Origin: Rhizobium sp. BT03
GTDB lineage: Bacteria > Pseudomonadota > Alphaproteobacteria > Rhizobiales > Rhizobiaceae
NCBI RefSeq assembly: GCF_030053155.1
Contig: NZ_CP125642.1
Location: 248,001 to 312,000 of the forward strand
Direction of reading: 5' to 3'
DNA length: 64,000 nucleotides
Position numbers and translations under genes: made by a program. Below, in pieces: positions 8,593-13,796 of the stretch. The notes under the pieces are model-generated. The model had not been told where the DNA came from, searched no databases, and was given only the letters and a program-made list of their open reading frames with translations. Every line of letters begins with the position of its first letter. The stretch's first letter is position 1.

Positions 8593-8997
8593 ATGAAAGA
8601 AGAACCGCATTCCGTCGACGTTCACGTCGGAAAGACCATTCGCATCCAGCGTCTGCTGAGGAAAGTTTCTCAGACGGAACTGGGCGATCGGGTTGGTGTA
8701 ACGTTCCAGCAGATCCAGAAATACGAAAAGGGTTCCAACCGCGTTTCCGCCAGCATGCTGGTTGAAATCGCCGGCGCGCTGAAGGTCGATGTCAGGACGT
8801 TTTTCGACGATCTGTCGACACCCGATACGGCCAACGACAACCCGGCTCCGAGCGAGGAATTCATCATCTCGCGCGAAGGCGTGCTGCTCAATGCGGCGTT
8901 CTTTTCGATCAAGAACGAAGCTCTTCGCAAGAAGATCCTGAAGCTCGTCCAGGCGATCGCGCATACCGAACAGATGGACGGCGACGCGGCAGAATAA
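8593..8997 (+). CDS. XRE-family helix-turn-helix regulator
   Basis: This 134-residue protein has an N-terminal XRE/Cro-type helix-turn-helix at about residues 14-68 (IRIQRLLRKVSQTELGDRVG, then TFQQIQKYEKGSNRVSAS). A charged C-terminal tail may dimerise. The layout and the FQQIQKYEKG signature match the rhizobial family that includes PraR and related quorum/biofilm regulators, but this is a shorter, distinct paralogue. AGGAGGG lies before the ATG. A sigma-54-like promoter at 8435 suggests nitrogen- or symbiosis-linked expression. Targets are unknown. Confidence 0.8.
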   Translation: MKEEPHSVDVHVGKTIRIQRLLRKVSQTELGDRVGVTFQQIQKYEKGSNRVSASMLVEIAGALKVDVRTFFDDLSTPDTANDNPAPSEEFIISREGVLLNAAFFSIKNEALRKKILKLVQAIAHTEQMDGDAAE

Positions 8998-9034
8998 ACC
9001 CTGATCTTCACGCGGTCCGGGCAAACCGCATGAT

Positions 9035-9168
9035 GATCGATCGGTGATCAACAGTGGCGATCGTGATCGATAGTATCTATCGATCGGGGACCGATCGCGA
9101 CCAATGGCTTCGATTGGGATCTGGATCAATCGGACATTGATCGGGATCAATGGCGATCGATCAGGATC
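9035..9168. repeat. GATC-dense tract
   Basis: Fourteen GATC tetranucleotides occur in 134 bases, many as GATCGAT, GGGATCAAT or GATCRAT variants, so the stretch is a degenerate short-period repeat. About one GATC per 256 bases is expected by chance. It fills the gap after the XRE gene and enters the 3' end of the next minus-strand gene. The role is unknown. Confidence 0.7.
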
Positions 9169-9413
9169 AGATTCTCGCTGGCATCCTTCATTGCGATCTT
9201 GGCTTTGCTGCCGAGCAGTTTTTCGAGATTGACGTCTAGTTCCCTGTCGGGATCTATGCCGTCCCAATCGATTGCGACCTGCAGCAGCGCCATGTTCGTG
9301 AGGTGCATCAGATTCCGCAGCTGAAGCTTTTCAGCCTCCTCCTTGGCTGCCGACAGCAGCCGGAAGATCCTTGCGTATTCGCTGCCTGTACCTTCGTTGC
9401 GTTGTTCAAACAT
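9147..9413 (-). CDS. Small hypothetical protein (88 aa)
   Basis: I do not recognise this 88-residue protein. It has a helical, charged N-terminal half (YARIFRLLSAAKEEAEKLQ) and an acidic centre (DWDGIDPDRELDVNLEKLLG), no signal peptide and no cysteine. GGGGCGGGAACG precedes the ATG. It begins 66 bases after the TfuA stop on the same strand, so it may belong to that transcript, though the gap allows its own promoter. Its last codons lie in the GATC-dense tract. Confidence 0.6.
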   Translation of the reverse strand: MFEQRNEGTGSEYARIFRLLSAAKEEAEKLQLRNLMHLTNMALLQVAIDWDGIDPDRELDVNLEKLLGSKAKIAMKDASENLILIDRH

Positions 9414-9479
9414 CGTTCCCGCCCCTTTGGCCGTGAAACCCTACGATTCCATCACCACTGTATCTTTCCGCCGTGACCG

Positions 9480-10223
9480 TTATTCAAGCGTTACAGGAAC
9501 CGTATTGCGCGTGACTTCGGCGTGCAGCAGCTCCCAATGCGAGGTGGCGGCAAAGCGCCAGTCACGGTTGACGGGCAGGAATTCGTCCCGGCGCAGCCAA
9601 TCCAGCACCAGCCGGGCGTCGCTGCGCTTGCGCTCGACGCGATGCTGGCGGATAGCGGCGAGGATCTGGTCGCGGCGCGGCTTGCGGAAATGGCATTCGT
9701 CGGCGACCTTGGCATAGGTGCGCTCGGAAAAATGCAGGAAACGGCCGGCAAGCAGCAGTTTCTTGCGCTCGCCTGACGAGATCTCGCCACCGGCAAAAAG
9801 CGCATCGATGGTCGGCTCGAAATCGACCCAAGGCACCGAAAGCGGCAGCCAGCCGAGCGCCTGGGGTGCATGCACCAGCGCGACGGCCTCGTCGTCGAGC
9901 AGCCGCCCGGCCTCGTAATCTTCGAAGATCGAGCCAAGCCCGACCATGCCGAAGGGCGCGCATTCGGCCGCCCGCAACGCGCCCATGCTGGCGCCGCCGG
10001 CAACGGCGACATCGTGCTCGAGCGCGAAGAGAATTTCCTTGTGCCAGACCGAGGGCAGATCGCCGAAATATCCGTCGACGAGGCCGATGGCGGTGGCGCC
10101 GTCGTGAACGGCCTTCAGGATATCGCCGCAGGCGGCCGGCGGCCGGAAATCGATGCGGGGGGACATGGCTCTCGCAGCAGTGAGATCGCTGCCAAGGCTC
10201 GGGCCGACGAACAGCACCTTCAT
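9480..10223 (-). CDS. TfuA-like protein, partner of YcaO
   Basis: The 247-residue product has the TfuA core: an N-terminal VLFVGPSLGSDL strand-loop, AIGLVDGYFGD, then the hallmark KEILFALEHDVAVAGGASMG followed by ALRAAECAPFGMVGLG and IFEDYEAG. TfuA is named from the trifolitoxin locus. TfuA proteins work with YcaO enzymes in peptide-backbone thioamidation, as established for methyl-coenzyme M reductase and some thioamide RiPPs, where TfuA is thought to deliver or release sulfide. The start codon overlaps the YcaO stop (ATGA), so the two are translationally coupled. The target is proposed to be the 47-residue peptide at 11598-11741. Confidence 0.88.
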   Translation of the reverse strand: MKVLFVGPSLGSDLTAARAMSPRIDFRPPAACGDILKAVHDGATAIGLVDGYFGDLPSVWHKEILFALEHDVAVAGGASMGALRAAECAPFGMVGLGSIFEDYEAGRLLDDEAVALVHAPQALGWLPLSVPWVDFEPTIDALFAGGEISSGERKKLLLAGRFLHFSERTYAKVADECHFRKPRRDQILAAIRQHRVERKRSDARLVLDWLRRDEFLPVNRDWRFAATSHWELLHAEVTRNTVPVTLE

Positions 10224-11584
10224 GACTGGGCTCCTCTCATGGTGTTGACCGCCCGCATGCCGAGCTGGATGTACTGGCCCGAGATATCGACCTCCAGGCC
10301 CGGCACGATCACCCTGACGACGGAGACGGGCAGGACCCGATGCGCAAACGGCACGACGACGATCTGCTCGATGCCGGTTGCAGCCAGCCGGCCGGCAATC
10401 TGGCCGATGGTGTCCTGGATCGTCGCCGCGCGGGGAAGACGGGCCTGGAACGCGCGCATCCGGCCGTCGCCCTCGCAGAGCTCGACCACCTGCTGCATCG
10501 CCTCGCTCCGGTCGAGCCGCTGATAGACGCGCGGCGAAAAATCGTCGCGGCTGCCGGCAATCGCGGTCAGCCGGCTCTGCGCCGCCTCGGTAATGGCGCG
10601 CAGCGCGGCGCGCACGGGGTCGGGGTGGCAGCCGCAACCGCCGCAGACATGGGCCCAGCGCGCATCGACACGGTCGGAAAGATTGCCGGGCATGATGACG
10701 GCGAGAAAGGCGGGAATGCCGATATCGGTGGTCATGTCGAGCAGCAGCAGCCGCATGCCGGCGCGGGTGATCCGATCGGTCATGATGTCGATGACCGCAT
10801 CGCCGAAGGAGGCGGGGTCGATGCGGCTTTCCTTCAGCCGCTGCGGCGATTTCAGCTGGGTCAGTGCCCAGGCGTCGCGCTCCACCAGCTCGCAAAGCCC
10901 ATGCAGGACCGCTTCGGACGGCGTGTTGCCGGAGGCGAGCCCGTCGCTCGACTGCTCGAAACCCGGCGGCCTTTCGCCGCGGTGATCGAGGCCGACGAGC
11001 CACCAGGGCACGAAGACGCTGCTGCCGGAAAGGATATCGAGCCCGGAGCACCAGGGAATGAGGCCTGTGCCGATCTCGTCGGGCGCGCAGCGGGCGACAT
11101 TGTCGAGATCGATCATGGCGGCATGTTCCGCCCGCATGCCCTCGACCGTCGCCTGCGTCAGGTCGGCGGGTGGGATTTCGGCAATCCGCGTCTCGATCGC
11201 CTCCATGGCGGCCGAGGTCATGGCGGCATCATTGTCGATGCCCTTGCCCTGGAAGACCGAGAGCGTATGGCTGTTCGGCCGCGTGGCGAAGGCGACGGGG
11301 ATGTTCAGGACGTCGAGCGCGGTCAGCAGGCCGATGCGGGTAATGCCGAATTCGCGCAGATGCGGCCTGATGGTCGCCAGGGTCTGCGCCGGCGTGACGG
11401 CGCGGTCATGATACTCGCTGACGCCGGCCGATGATCGTTCGAGGTCACCGGCGAGCGTCTCAAGAGCATTTCCGTTTTTCTTCGGATCACGAAAATGCTC
11501 TATCTCTTTGTTTTCACGCAATCCCGGATGCAAAACCGCTTCACATTTTTGCTGGAATTGCTCTTGATCGGCGAAAGCGGACAT
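10220..11584 (-). CDS. YcaO-domain enzyme (TfuA-associated)
   Basis: The 454-residue protein carries the YcaO ATP-binding motifs: SAAMEAIETR, CELVERDAW and AITEAAQSRLT. The C-terminus lacks the PxPxP tail of azoline-forming cyclodehydratases, and no E1-like or ocin-ThiF partner gene is near. Together with the TfuA neighbour this favours backbone thioamidation over azole formation. It starts 13 bases after the stop of a 47-codon peptide gene, with GGACGAG as ribosome site. Residues about 8-41 are encoded by a rhizobial palindromic repeat lying in frame (11463-11564), so the native N-terminus is interrupted by a repeat-derived segment. Whether the enzyme stays active is unknown; all core motifs are downstream and intact. 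Confidence 0.88.
   Translation of the reverse strand: MSAFADQEQFQQKCEAVLHPGLRENKEIEHFRDPKKNGNALETLAGDLERSSAGVSEYHDRAVTPAQTLATIRPHLREFGITRIGLLTALDVLNIPVAFATRPNSHTLSVFQGKGIDNDAAMTSAAMEAIETRIAEIPPADLTQATVEGMRAEHAAMIDLDNVARCAPDEIGTGLIPWCSGLDILSGSSVFVPWWLVGLDHRGERPPGFEQSSDGLASGNTPSEAVLHGLCELVERDAWALTQLKSPQRLKESRIDPASFGDAVIDIMTDRITRAGMRLLLLDMTTDIGIPAFLAVIMPGNLSDRVDARWAHVCGGCGCHPDPVRAALRAITEAAQSRLTAIAGSRDDFSPRVYQRLDRSEAMQQVVELCEGDGRMRAFQARLPRAATIQDTIGQIAGRLAATGIEQIVVVPFAHRVLPVSVVRVIVPGLEVDISGQYIQLGMRAVNTMRGAQS
11463..11564. repeat. Rhizobial palindromic intergenic repeat inside the YcaO reading frame
   Basis: About 102 bases (34 codons) begin AGAGCATTT, form a hairpin with AAAATGCTCT, continue TATCTCTTTGTTTTCACGCA and end GGAATTGCTCT. 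This arrangement is the common rhizobial mosaic/palindromic repeat normally found between genes. Here its length is a multiple of three and it is read without a stop, giving residues about 8-41 of the YcaO protein (EQFQQKCEAVLHPGL and so on). Recognition as that family is from memory of its sequence. Confidence 0.75.
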
Positions 11585-11597
11585 ACCGGTCTCGTCC

Positions 11598-11741
11598 TTA
11601 ACGGAACCTCAGCGCATGCGTCAGGCTTTCGAGCGCATTGGCGGAAACGTTGAGTTCGTCTTGTTTCATCGCTGCTCTGGCAGCTGCAGAGAAGCGCAGG
11701 GACTGTGTCTGAACTGCGGTGCTTTCAGCATTCGTCTTCAT
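11598..11741 (-). CDS. 47-residue peptide, candidate YcaO/TfuA precursor
   Basis: ATG at 11741 has GGAG seven bases before it, and TAA at 11600-11598 ends 13 bases before the YcaO ATG. The peptide starts MKTNAESTAVQTQ, continues SLRFSAAARAAMKQDELNV, and ends SLTHALRFR. It is rich in Ala, Ser and Thr, has no Cys, and carries LRF twice (residues about 15-17 and near the C-terminus). Size and position match RiPP precursor genes; trifolitoxin's precursor is also about 42 residues and also sits beside TfuA/YcaO-type genes. Lack of Cys argues against thiazoles, while thioamidation could act on the backbone. That it is translated and modified is inference. Confidence 0.68.
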   Translation of the reverse strand: MKTNAESTAVQTQSLRFSAAARAAMKQDELNVSANALESLTHALRFR

Positions 11742-11803
11742 GTTCCATCTCCGATTGGTTGGGCAGCGCGCTGCCGTTAACCATCAGAGGGAAACATTGC
11801 CTG

Positions 11804-11832
11804 CGTCATTTAAGCGTTACAGGCTTCGTTAA
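11804..11832 (-). promoter_or_regulatory. Direct repeats TTAACG / GTAACG / ATGACG upstream of the peptide gene
   Basis: Read on the minus strand, three similar hexamers occur at 12- and 11-base spacing, about one helical turn, in the 102-base gap between the SARP-like gene and the peptide gene. SARP regulators typically bind direct repeats spaced this way. A further TTAACG lies at 11775-11780. Confidence 0.35.
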
Positions 11833-11843
11833 AAGGCCGTGCA

Positions 11844-13796
11844 TCAGGGAAGACCGGCCAGTTGCAGGCCTTTTATCAGCGGTTCGGTGAAGGCCGGATC
11901 GCGATCGGGGACGAAGTGACGGATGTCCTCGCTGCGGAAATCGGGGAAGTTTTCCAGAACCGTCCTGGCGTAGCCATGGGCCTTGCCCGTATTGCCCGAC
12001 ATGGCATGCGAGGCGGCGAGCAGGCGGGCGGTCGCCTGTTTCGTCTTCACCGGTTCCAGCGCATCGATCGCCTTTTCATACTCTTCGCGCATGAAGTGGA
12101 TGCCGCCGAGGTTCCAGTAATAATAGTCCGGCGGCAGCGGATTGAGTTTGAAGGCCGCACGGCTGAGCTCCAGCGCCCGGTCGAAATCGCCGTCATGAGA
12201 AAGCGCGTCGGAGAAATCGGCGAGAATATCGGCATCGTTGGGATTGAGATCCTGGGCCTGCTGGAAATATTCGAGGCTTTGGTCGAAACGGCGGCGATAA
12301 AGCGCGACAAAACCGAGCTCGCGGTAGGCCCGGCCGCTGTTCGGGTCGGACTGCTGCGCCTGCCGGGCGGCGCCGTTCGCCTCATCGAGCAGGTCGGTAT
12401 CGCGCATGCCGCGGATCAGCCATTCCATGCCGAGCGCCCGCGACACGCCGGCATGGGCGGCCGAGAAATGCTCATAACGATTGAGCGAGGATTTGAACCA
12501 TTTGCGCGCCTGGCGCAGATGCTGCAGGTCGGTCTGGGCGATCAGCCGCTTGCCTTCCAGGTAAAGACGATAGGCGGAGGCCGGCGCATCGCCGATCGGC
12601 ATCGCCAGTTCGTGGCGCTCGATCGTGTCGGCGAGCGAGGAGACGATCCGCCGCGTCAGATGCGCGAAGGATTCGCTGATCTTCTGCATCACCAGCGGCA
12701 GTTCCAGCGCCCAGATCACTTCCGACGTCGTCGTCCGCGTCAGCCGGCAGGTGGCATAGACATCCTCGTCGCGGCCCTGGATCGTGACGTAGACCGCATA
12801 GTCGAAGCTGAGGTCGAGCGGGCCGGGCACGGCACGCGCCGGATCGATCGAGCGGCTGAGGATTTCGAGGCTCGTATGCGCCGCGATCACCTTGAAGCCG
12901 CGCTGCTGGCTGAGGCCGATGGTGACATCTTCAAGAAGCGCCCTGCCGACACGCTCCATCAGCGGATCGGTGAAGATGCTTTCCGGCGGCAGGATGATGA
13001 TGCGCGGCTGGCCGAGCAGGTCGCCGAACATGCCAGGCGCCGATGGGCGCTCCGGCGCGGCTGCCTGTGCCGCCGGGATCAGGCCGAGTTCGCGGGCGAG
13101 CGCTGTGGTGCTTTCCTCCGGTTCGGTATCGAACTCGTCCTTCAGCTGGCTCTTGCATTTCAGATAGGCCTGGCGGGCCGCGGCCGGATCGTTCATCCTG
13201 ACATGGGTGCGCATCAGGGCGCGATAGGCCGTCTCACTGGCAGGGTCGAGTTCCAGCAGGCGCCTGGCAAGCGCGACCTGCCCGTCGTCGGAGCGGTCTT
13301 CCGATATTTCGATCAGCCGGGTCAGATGGGCGGAGCGCCATTCGTCGATGCGCTGGCGTTCGAAGGTCAGCCAGTCCTCGGCGCCCTGCGTCGGCGATTT
13401 GGCGCCTTCCAGCAGTTCGCCGTTCAGCATATCGCTGTCTTCGGGGGCGAGCGGCCCTTTCTGTTTCAGGATATGAACGTCGACCTCCCAGCCATCCGCA
13501 AGCCCGATATGGGTTCGGGTCGCGGCAAGCAGCGGCGGAAGGTCGGCGGGAATGCTCTGCTCGATGCGCGACAGCAGCTGGCGCAGGCTGCCTGCCCGTT
13601 TTTCCGGCAGTTCCGATTGCCAGAGCTGCCGCCTGACGGTTTCGCGGTCGAGTTCGAGATTGGCTTCGGCGGCGAGCATGGCGAGGAGAAAATAAGACTT
13701 CTCCGGCAAAGGGAGTTCCCTCCCCGCTGCCAGCAGCCTCGGTCTTCCGAGCAGGCACAGCCTGTTCCTCGACATCAGTCCGGATGTCCGTTGCAT
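11844..13796 (-). CDS. SARP-like regulator: winged helix, BTAD domain and TPR repeats
   Basis: About 650 residues. The N-terminus is an OmpR-type winged helix (LCLLGRPRLLAAGRELPLPE ... KSYFLLAMLA ... RETVRRQLWQSE). A BTAD domain follows (WLTFERQRIDEWRSAHLTRL, ARRLLELDPASETAYRALMR), then a central alpha/beta part (about 270-400), then TPR-like helices to the end (GRAYRELGFVALYRRRFDQS and similar). This is the SARP plan known from actinobacterial antibiotic regulators, also found in rhizobia. It lies directly upstream of, and in the same direction as, the peptide-YcaO-TfuA genes, so it is the likely local activator. ATG 13796 has GGGGTGAG before it; an upstream codon at 13877 and an ATG at 13775 are alternatives. 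Confidence 0.8.
   Translation of the reverse strand: MQRTSGLMSRNRLCLLGRPRLLAAGRELPLPEKSYFLLAMLAAEANLELDRETVRRQLWQSELPEKRAGSLRQLLSRIEQSIPADLPPLLAATRTHIGLADGWEVDVHILKQKGPLAPEDSDMLNGELLEGAKSPTQGAEDWLTFERQRIDEWRSAHLTRLIEISEDRSDDGQVALARRLLELDPASETAYRALMRTHVRMNDPAAARQAYLKCKSQLKDEFDTEPEESTTALARELGLIPAAQAAAPERPSAPGMFGDLLGQPRIIILPPESIFTDPLMERVGRALLEDVTIGLSQQRGFKVIAAHTSLEILSRSIDPARAVPGPLDLSFDYAVYVTIQGRDEDVYATCRLTRTTTSEVIWALELPLVMQKISESFAHLTRRIVSSLADTIERHELAMPIGDAPASAYRLYLEGKRLIAQTDLQHLRQARKWFKSSLNRYEHFSAAHAGVSRALGMEWLIRGMRDTDLLDEANGAARQAQQSDPNSGRAYRELGFVALYRRRFDQSLEYFQQAQDLNPNDADILADFSDALSHDGDFDRALELSRAAFKLNPLPPDYYYWNLGGIHFMREEYEKAIDALEPVKTKQATARLLAASHAMSGNTGKAHGYARTVLENFPDFRSEDIRHFVPDRDPAFTEPLIKGLQLAGLP

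Follow-up and report, generated by a model that had tools for sequence, protein, structure and literature searches.

TfuA-associated clusters for thioamidated ribosomally synthesized and post-translationally modified peptides (RiPPs) are of the thioviridamide/thiovarsolin type, and the trifolitoxin locus combines tfuA with a Rhizobium peptide. The name TfuA has been traced to that locus (PMC4603692). When last surveyed, the known thioamidated RiPPs made with a TfuA and a YcaO protein all came from Actinobacteria, and the survey, which holds 7,799 RiPPER peptides in its supplementary material, reported more than 500 TfuA clusters in Rhizobium in 2021 (PMC8120280). YcaO-TfuA pairs also thioamidate a glycine of McrA. 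A further described system, that of PraR and CinS in R. leguminosarum, joins an XRE repressor of the HipB type to a small protein from a regulated operon; cinS shares a transcript with the synthase gene cinI, and its product inactivates PraR, the repressor (PMC4149787). Here we describe a locus with likenesses to each of these, found in a 64,000-nucleotide stretch of Rhizobium sp. BT03 (contig NZ_CP125642.1, positions 248,001 to 312,000 of the forward strand; the window in what follows). Judged from its sequence, it very probably makes a small sulfur-modified peptide, encoded by a 47-codon gene. Because the genes travel with likely relatives of a quorum-sensing repressor and its anti-repressor, there is a hint that this peptide may serve in a regulatory switch and be no ordinary antibiotic.

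We read the locus, with somewhat more confidence than doubt, as a cassette of six parts. X (8593-8997, plus strand) encodes an XRE regulator of the PraR type and converges on the others, all of which lie on the minus strand: R, a BTAD/tetratricopeptide repeat (TPR) regulator (stop at 11844, start at 13796 or 13877); A, a conserved coding gene for the putative 47-residue precursor peptide (11741-11598); Y, a YcaO of the TfuA-associated type (11584-10220; PF02624, E = 1.5e-65); T, a TfuA (10223-9480; PF07812, E = 1.7e-36); and S, an 88-residue small protein that we propose to be a CinS-like anti-repressor (9413-9147). Y and T adjoin with an ATGA overlap. In a predicted leader hairpin of A (11740-11797, minus strand), the Shine-Dalgarno sequence GGAG (11752-11749) is paired, as is the edge of the start codon. 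The original prediction had listed the five minus-strand genes with coordinates and spacing that are correct on re-reading the window, and had overlooked X and the hairpin. In Pfam, R matches BTAD (6.2e-13) and TPR families, and its match to Trans_reg_C (E 0.054) is under the cut-off; Streptomyces antibiotic regulatory proteins (SARPs), which R resembles, consist of an OmpR-like DNA-binding domain plus BTAD.

With the TfuA-associated RiPP clusters the locus shares adjacent ycaO and tfuA genes, a short precursor gene and, in some sister precursors, repeated cores. It is unlike them in that a BTAD/TPR regulator, a PraR-like XRE protein and a CinS-like protein are regular neighbours here in Rhizobiaceae, in that no tailoring, export or protease genes were found, and in its conserved core without Cys and the leader hairpin of its precursor type (type A below). 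Both enzymes have their closest solved and curated relatives in the McrA system, but Y and T score below the curated cut-offs and the putative substrate is a 47-residue peptide, not a metabolic enzyme. PraR-CinS likewise pairs an XRE repressor with a small protein, whereas here the pair flanks a peptide-modification cassette and the similarity of S to CinS is marginal.

From its conservation and the selection acting on it we conclude that the 47-codon gene is real, as had been proposed from the window alone. Among 148 Rhizobium genomes the peptide occurs in 91 at E<1e-3 (eight more match only at E 0.1-1, giving 99 at E<=1), an ortholog of T in 91 (E<=1e-70) and a close relative of the 88-mer (at least 74% identity) in 91; these are the same 91 genomes, and the three genes adjoin in all of them. 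The remaining 57 genomes have neither the TfuA ortholog nor the peptide at these cuts. The co-occurrence set holds 91 places for each gene and leaves out the eight genomes with weaker peptide matches, the S relatives of 60-62% identity (seven genomes plus one second copy) and more distant second copies of S; 91 of 91 is a raw count that ignores kinship, which weakens it as support. Over 41 distinct genes the ratio of nonsynonymous to synonymous substitution (dN/dS; Nei-Gojobori, summed over pairs) is 0.18 for A as a whole, and by residues it is 0.48 for 1-15, 0.065 for 15-26, 0.10 for 27-37 and 0.077 for 38-47. The peptide has a conserved leader block, RFSAAA..A..KQ, and a C-terminal N..LE.LTHAL(R/K)FR segment, and has no Cys. 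The uniformity of type A peptides is partly built in, because loci were sorted into this type by the C-terminal motif, and for that reason an alignment of 14 sequences reaching out to Aureimonas gives a fairer view; in it S18, A21, N35, H42, A43, F46 and R47 are invariant. In R. johnstonii 3841 the 47-mer is already annotated on pRL11, as a "hypothetical protein" (WP_165422440.1). In an even sample across the family, type A peptides occur in just 8 of 297 genomes and 2 of 109 genera.

The original prediction took the peptide to be the substrate of the YcaO-TfuA pair. The 91/91 linkage supports this, as do short open reading frames (ORFs) in the same slot of sister cassettes. We compared 180 loci longer than 4 kb with a TfuA match (from L061-L160 and L188-L273, with near-identical strains kept unmerged); L-numbers denote fetched loci, and statements on neighbourhoods cover the fetched stretches. 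R, Y and T follow one another in that order on one strand in 123 of the 180. Classed by pattern, the stretch that separates R from Y in these 123 encodes a type A peptide 59 times and an unrelated type B ORF 57 times, while the other seven have something different or nothing recognisable there; three of the 123 yielded no slot candidate, their ORF limits overlapping. Type B ORFs are mostly ~70-120 residues long with a leader like GLWLADLDAGTV, and 11 of the 57 carry, by pattern, tandem C-terminal cores such as A(A/S)GR(M/L/F)DE. By eye, the ORF of L134 contains nine near-copies of a 14-residue unit, and the type C ORFs of L120 and L138 repeat VMFTMRSEPTE or VLTTMRAQ. Repeated cores are typical of RiPP precursors, thiovarsolin being one example. 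The case for A as a precursor is strong, and A is very probably the substrate of this YcaO-TfuA pair.

The sister loci also show that the parts of the cassette can be separated, which counts against reading it as one unit: in seven of the 180 loci X-Y-T-S remain but R and A are missing, and one locus elsewhere in the BT03 genome (L280, replicon C6, 4070-6877) is X-R-S without A, Y and T. This genome has three TfuA loci, the window's alone being complete; one of the others, L141, is of the X-Y-T-S kind. Since the peptide had been said to stand or fall with whether such pairs occur without it, the outcome is divided: no ortholog of the pair lacks the peptide, but seven paralogous pairs have no recognisable precursor. 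To place these we made a quick tree of YcaO sequences (166 merged to 109 rows; several branches are long and the joins there unsure). The cassette YcaOs all lie on one side of one branch with support 100; that side counts 86 rows, five of which have neither R nor a recognised precursor. Types A, C and B form groups with support 99, 99 and 98, with precursor-less loci nested inside type B. Six of the seven precursor-less pairs were retained in the tree, nested among precursor-bearing loci, and precursor-less L156 keeps a scrap ending SGHVDG; because of this nesting and this scrap, loss of the precursor is the likelier history.

Several other arrangements were seen in passing. The third TfuA locus of the genome (L142), on replicon C3 like the window, is a distant YcaO-TfuA pair outside the cassette clade. 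Nine of the 180 loci have a TfuA gene with a divergent BTAD/TPR regulator; L143 (2993-3712), L190, L192, L194, L203, L204, L210 and L212 show this order with no YcaO in the fetched stretch, possibly a stand-alone type of TfuA. In L126 (5445-6729) and L137 (5450-6729), from Ensifer and Sinorhizobium, a PraR-like XRE gene stands directly before TfuA and no YcaO was detected.

For the chemistry, the closest relatives of both enzymes are the YcaO and TfuA proteins that thioamidate McrA, in agreement with the thioamidation-type enzymes first proposed. The best NCBIfam model for Y is TIGR03266 (McrA thioamidation), at 199 bits against a cut-off of 365, and T reaches 165 bits against 235 for NF033432; the E. 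coli YcaO model named after S12, NF040716, gives Y just 13 of 700 bits. As all scores are below the cut-offs, Y was accepted as an equivalog of neither the McrA-modifying nor the E. coli-type YcaO. The nearest solved chains are 6pe3 (MJ1094, 3.5e-31) for Y and 6xp8, a TfuA (9.7e-28), for T. Azol(in)e-forming YcaOs of thiazole/oxazole-modified microcin (TOMM) systems are expected to carry PxPxP at the C-terminus, and reading of the sequence finds none at the C-terminus of Y. Neither a C protein nor a C-D fusion is among the cassette parts or shared neighbours, the genes to which this search extended, the window's other genes being unscanned, and Y matches the YcaO family only; an azole-forming cluster was set aside on the lack of a C protein, of PxPxP and of Cys in the 47-mer. 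A ThiS-like carrier and the TfuA hydrolase tend to serve those YcaOs that form thioamides outside high-sulfide settings (PMC13063428), and ThiS-like carriers are encoded in the same genome. Because the relatives are McrA enzymes, PxPxP is absent and such carriers are present, thioamidation is the likely reaction of Y and T. Y also contains a dispersed repeat of ~102 bp in frame near codon 6 of ycaO (11463-11566, minus strand; limits approximate, set by eye), which adds ~34 residues and has 27 further matches in the genome, most of them partial; ycaO lacks it in L068, L070, L082 and L098.

The kinship with McrA-modifying enzymes also suits a different explanation, in which Y and T modify a resident protein, in the way that McrA or uL16 is modified elsewhere, while the 47-mer acts as a regulator or adaptor and is not the substrate. 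YcaO is reported to act on uL16 in Pseudomonadota (PMC13063428), and the seven paralogous loci that keep Y-T-S without a recognisable precursor point the same way. We nevertheless think this improbable: all 91 orthologous loci keep the peptide, the tandem cores of sister precursors are hard to explain for an adaptor, and the precursor-less loci lie inside the precursor-bearing clade.

A substrate peptide might still be an ordinary thioamidated RiPP, antibacterial with a narrow spectrum or active on plants, exported and processed by household functions, with X, R and S merely controlling its production. The known thioamidated RiPPs of TfuA-YcaO systems include bioactive compounds (PMC8120280), and the repeated cores of sister precursors suggest a product made in bulk. 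However, no exporter, peptidase or immunity gene was found among the genes common to divergent loci within the fetched stretches, in line with the earlier remark that no protease or exporter is adjacent. When ten type A loci representing four clades were compared in full, the sole pairs shared across clades at E<=1e-5 were of one LacI-like regulator, at 21-24% identity in non-matching places, and nine type B/C loci had nothing in common at E<=1e-10 (ORFs of at least 90 residues, in a comparison judged on its 22 best-linked ORFs). The stretches compared were 6.7-12.8 kb long. The C-terminal segment is, moreover, strongly conserved out to Aureimonas, unlike peptides shaped by an arms race. We regard an ordinary RiPP as unlikely, though a good deal less so than the modification of a resident protein. 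Export by way of a GG-type leader was considered and dropped, no such motif being seen by eye in type A peptides.

The start of A lies in a leader hairpin that is, by prediction and comparison, conserved and covarying. In the window, the 74 nucleotides around the start fold at -27 kcal/mol (z -2.83, with 1 of 200 shuffles as good), with GGAG paired. A z<-2 is reached by 91% of the 55 distinct type A leaders, and 95% pair the ribosome site at P>0.8, this share being counted over leaders with a recognisable site, as are those that follow. The corresponding figures for control leaders (45 each) are 2% and 11% for type B, 13% and 22% for S, and 0% and 18% for TfuA. Both Aureimonas leaders fold with the ribosome site paired. 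For covariation we used 36 hand-picked leaders of clade 1, in which 96.4% of cells pair. Changes on both sides of a pair occupy 41 cells compared to 16.0 (sd 3.5) in shuffled sets, a number reached in none of 500 shuffles; the covariation score of 0.317 compared to 0.220 is likewise reached in 0 of 500, and versions of the hairpin slid along the alignment give at most 15 cells with changes on both sides. Other measures temper this result. The number of pairs with changes on both sides (5; 90/500) and of pair types (17; 122/500) are unremarkable against shuffles, the 13 leaders of the sister clade show eight predicted pairs of which one is changed on both sides, and the hairpin is restricted to type A. 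Translational control is the function we read into it, because no U run follows. A search of 4227 Rfam families against 11500-12000 gave no match at E<=1, and a known RNA thermometer (ROSE and the like) was set aside on that ground.

Transcription would be governed by X. It carries an HTH_3 domain (1.7e-12) and is similar to PraR-like proteins, and on these two grounds we class it as a PraR-type XRE regulator. A PraR-like XRE gene lies within 900 bp of all 121 loci that have S, compared to 7 of 59 loci without S; in 58 of the 121 it is downstream and convergent, as in the window, and in 63 upstream, 22 of them with the gene 9 bp before R. In one sister clade all 15 loci have the palindrome TTGA-N5-TCAA, whose overall density is 0.032 per kb, within 150 bp of the start of the R ORF, and 13 of them have it upstream of X (a count that leaves out L108, with its single site 348 bp before R); this pattern is consistent with control of R and of X itself by X in that clade. 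Other observations pull away from this picture. Of the 42 loci in the clade to which the window belongs, none has the palindrome at R or at X, so a shared operator was rejected for that clade, and it is at X in 0 of the 61 loci with X upstream. The window's X has 36% identity to the PraR-like protein of L141, and the 3841 counterpart 37%. CAATTG is an example of the stretches that are conserved upstream of X in this clade of the window. The PraR consensus TTGCAA was discarded as a test for sites, being too short at six bases. Control of the cassette by X and S is plausible on these comparisons. The convergent gap between X and S (8998-9147) is rich in GATC, with 11 in 150 bases out of 614 in the 64 kb window.

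The 88-mer had been left as an 88-residue unknown, and, like the 47-mer, it matches no Pfam family; it now looks like an anti-repressor of the CinS type, on grounds of where its relatives stand. It is present in 98 of the 148 Rhizobium genomes and adjoins in all 91 with the orthologous TfuA; in 7 of the 57 genomes without that ortholog, a relative of 60-62% identity is found elsewhere. By iterated profiles, S-like proteins follow TfuA in 121 of the 180 loci, 114 of them among the 123 R-Y-T loci. Eight matches of 60-62% identity lie away from TfuA, and the four inspected agree: in L268, L269 and L271 a LuxR (Autoind_bind, GerE) and a LuxI (Autoind_synth), both by Pfam, are followed directly by the S relative, and L272 has the same LuxR-LuxI-S order by similarity. 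The window's own S does not adjoin a LuxI. Directly after LuxR-LuxI genes of R. johnstonii 3841 lies an ORF of 67 residues, which we take to be CinS from its position. The S profile matches this 67-mer over residues 14-51 at 11.8 bits (E 0.12 against 9943 background ORFs), where six S relatives alone outscore it and the next ORF below it is at 9.6 bits; profiles of S subgroups reach E 0.01 and 0.04, on a single-sequence basis. An apparent match of the 88-mer to cobA (E 0.033) is at chance level. Two further loci hold S-like proteins with no TfuA detected, L270 (5801-6067) and L273 (5597-5977), at 44% and 49% identity to the 88-mer over the matched part; both stretches also hold an XRE gene and, by our own reading, an acyltransferase-like gene.

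Kinship of S with CinS must be weighed against the possibility that the two are unrelated, that X and S are linked by operon inheritance, and that S is perhaps a small partner of TfuA or YcaO. S stands downstream of T in 121 loci, as a partner might, and the similarity to the CinS-like 67-mer is marginal: 11.8 bits at E 0.12 is a weak link, and hhalign gives the 88-mer group and the main 84-mer group a probability of 35% (P 4e-4), with 0.2% for a third subgroup. Speaking for CinS are the LuxR-LuxI relatives, in whose fetched stretches (L268, L269, L271 and L272) no YcaO or TfuA match was found, the X-R-S locus that lacks A, Y and T in the same genome, and the presence of X with every S in the 180 loci. 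The sequence relation of S and CinS is suggestive, not proof; we hold an unrelated S to be the less probable case, although it is the alternative to which we give most weight, and X and S to be likely relatives of PraR and CinS.

The better-supported account, by a modest degree of confidence, is in our view a cassette for a thioamide RiPP that is controlled by a repressor with its anti-repressor and also at the level of translation. X, as a PraR-type repressor, would keep R and itself off; S would bind X and lift the repression, by analogy with what CinS does to PraR, giving a positive-feedback switch. Opening of the hairpin would permit translation of A and, downstream, of Y and T. What we infer beyond this are the thioamidation, the modified site and the role of the peptide: Y, with ATP, and T, delivering sulfide, would convert one or more backbone amides to thioamides in or near the C-terminal N..LE.LTHAL(R/K)FR segment, and a general protease would remove the leader. 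Because no dedicated exporter, protease or immunity gene was found and the core is strongly conserved, we think it more likely that the product acts as a signal or as an effector inside the cell than that it is an antibiotic. A bolder version, which we offer as speculation, is that the cassette is a self-contained Gram-negative peptide-signal switch in which the TPR part of R would read the thioamidated C-terminal peptide, no antibiotic, as its ligand, with X and S setting the threshold and PraR-CinS being a domesticated piece of such cassettes.

TfuA genes are common in the genus, occurring in 96 of 100 sampled Rhizobium genomes, and Rhizobium TfuA clusters have been catalogued (PMC8120280), so that clusters of this general kind are not undescribed. 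Novelty can hold for the precursor family and the wiring, relative to the full texts that can be searched and, for the RNA element, relative to Rfam only. The main text of the 2021 survey contains neither "SARP" nor "BTAD" (PMC8120280). In the full texts searched, which include few subscription papers, nothing joins PraR with TfuA or YcaO (CinS alone was not paired in this search), and literature on TfuA-like or YcaO-like proteins and nodulation gave general papers only among the matches listed. The system is directly testable, as it offers a defined precursor family whose likely core can be named, a hairpin in the leader, and a proposed repressor and anti-repressor with relatives that have been studied as a pair. 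Regulators of the PraR/CinS kind control root biofilms and nodulation competitiveness (PMC4149787), and the switch, if it operates as proposed, would tie sulfur-modified peptides to the regulators of these traits.

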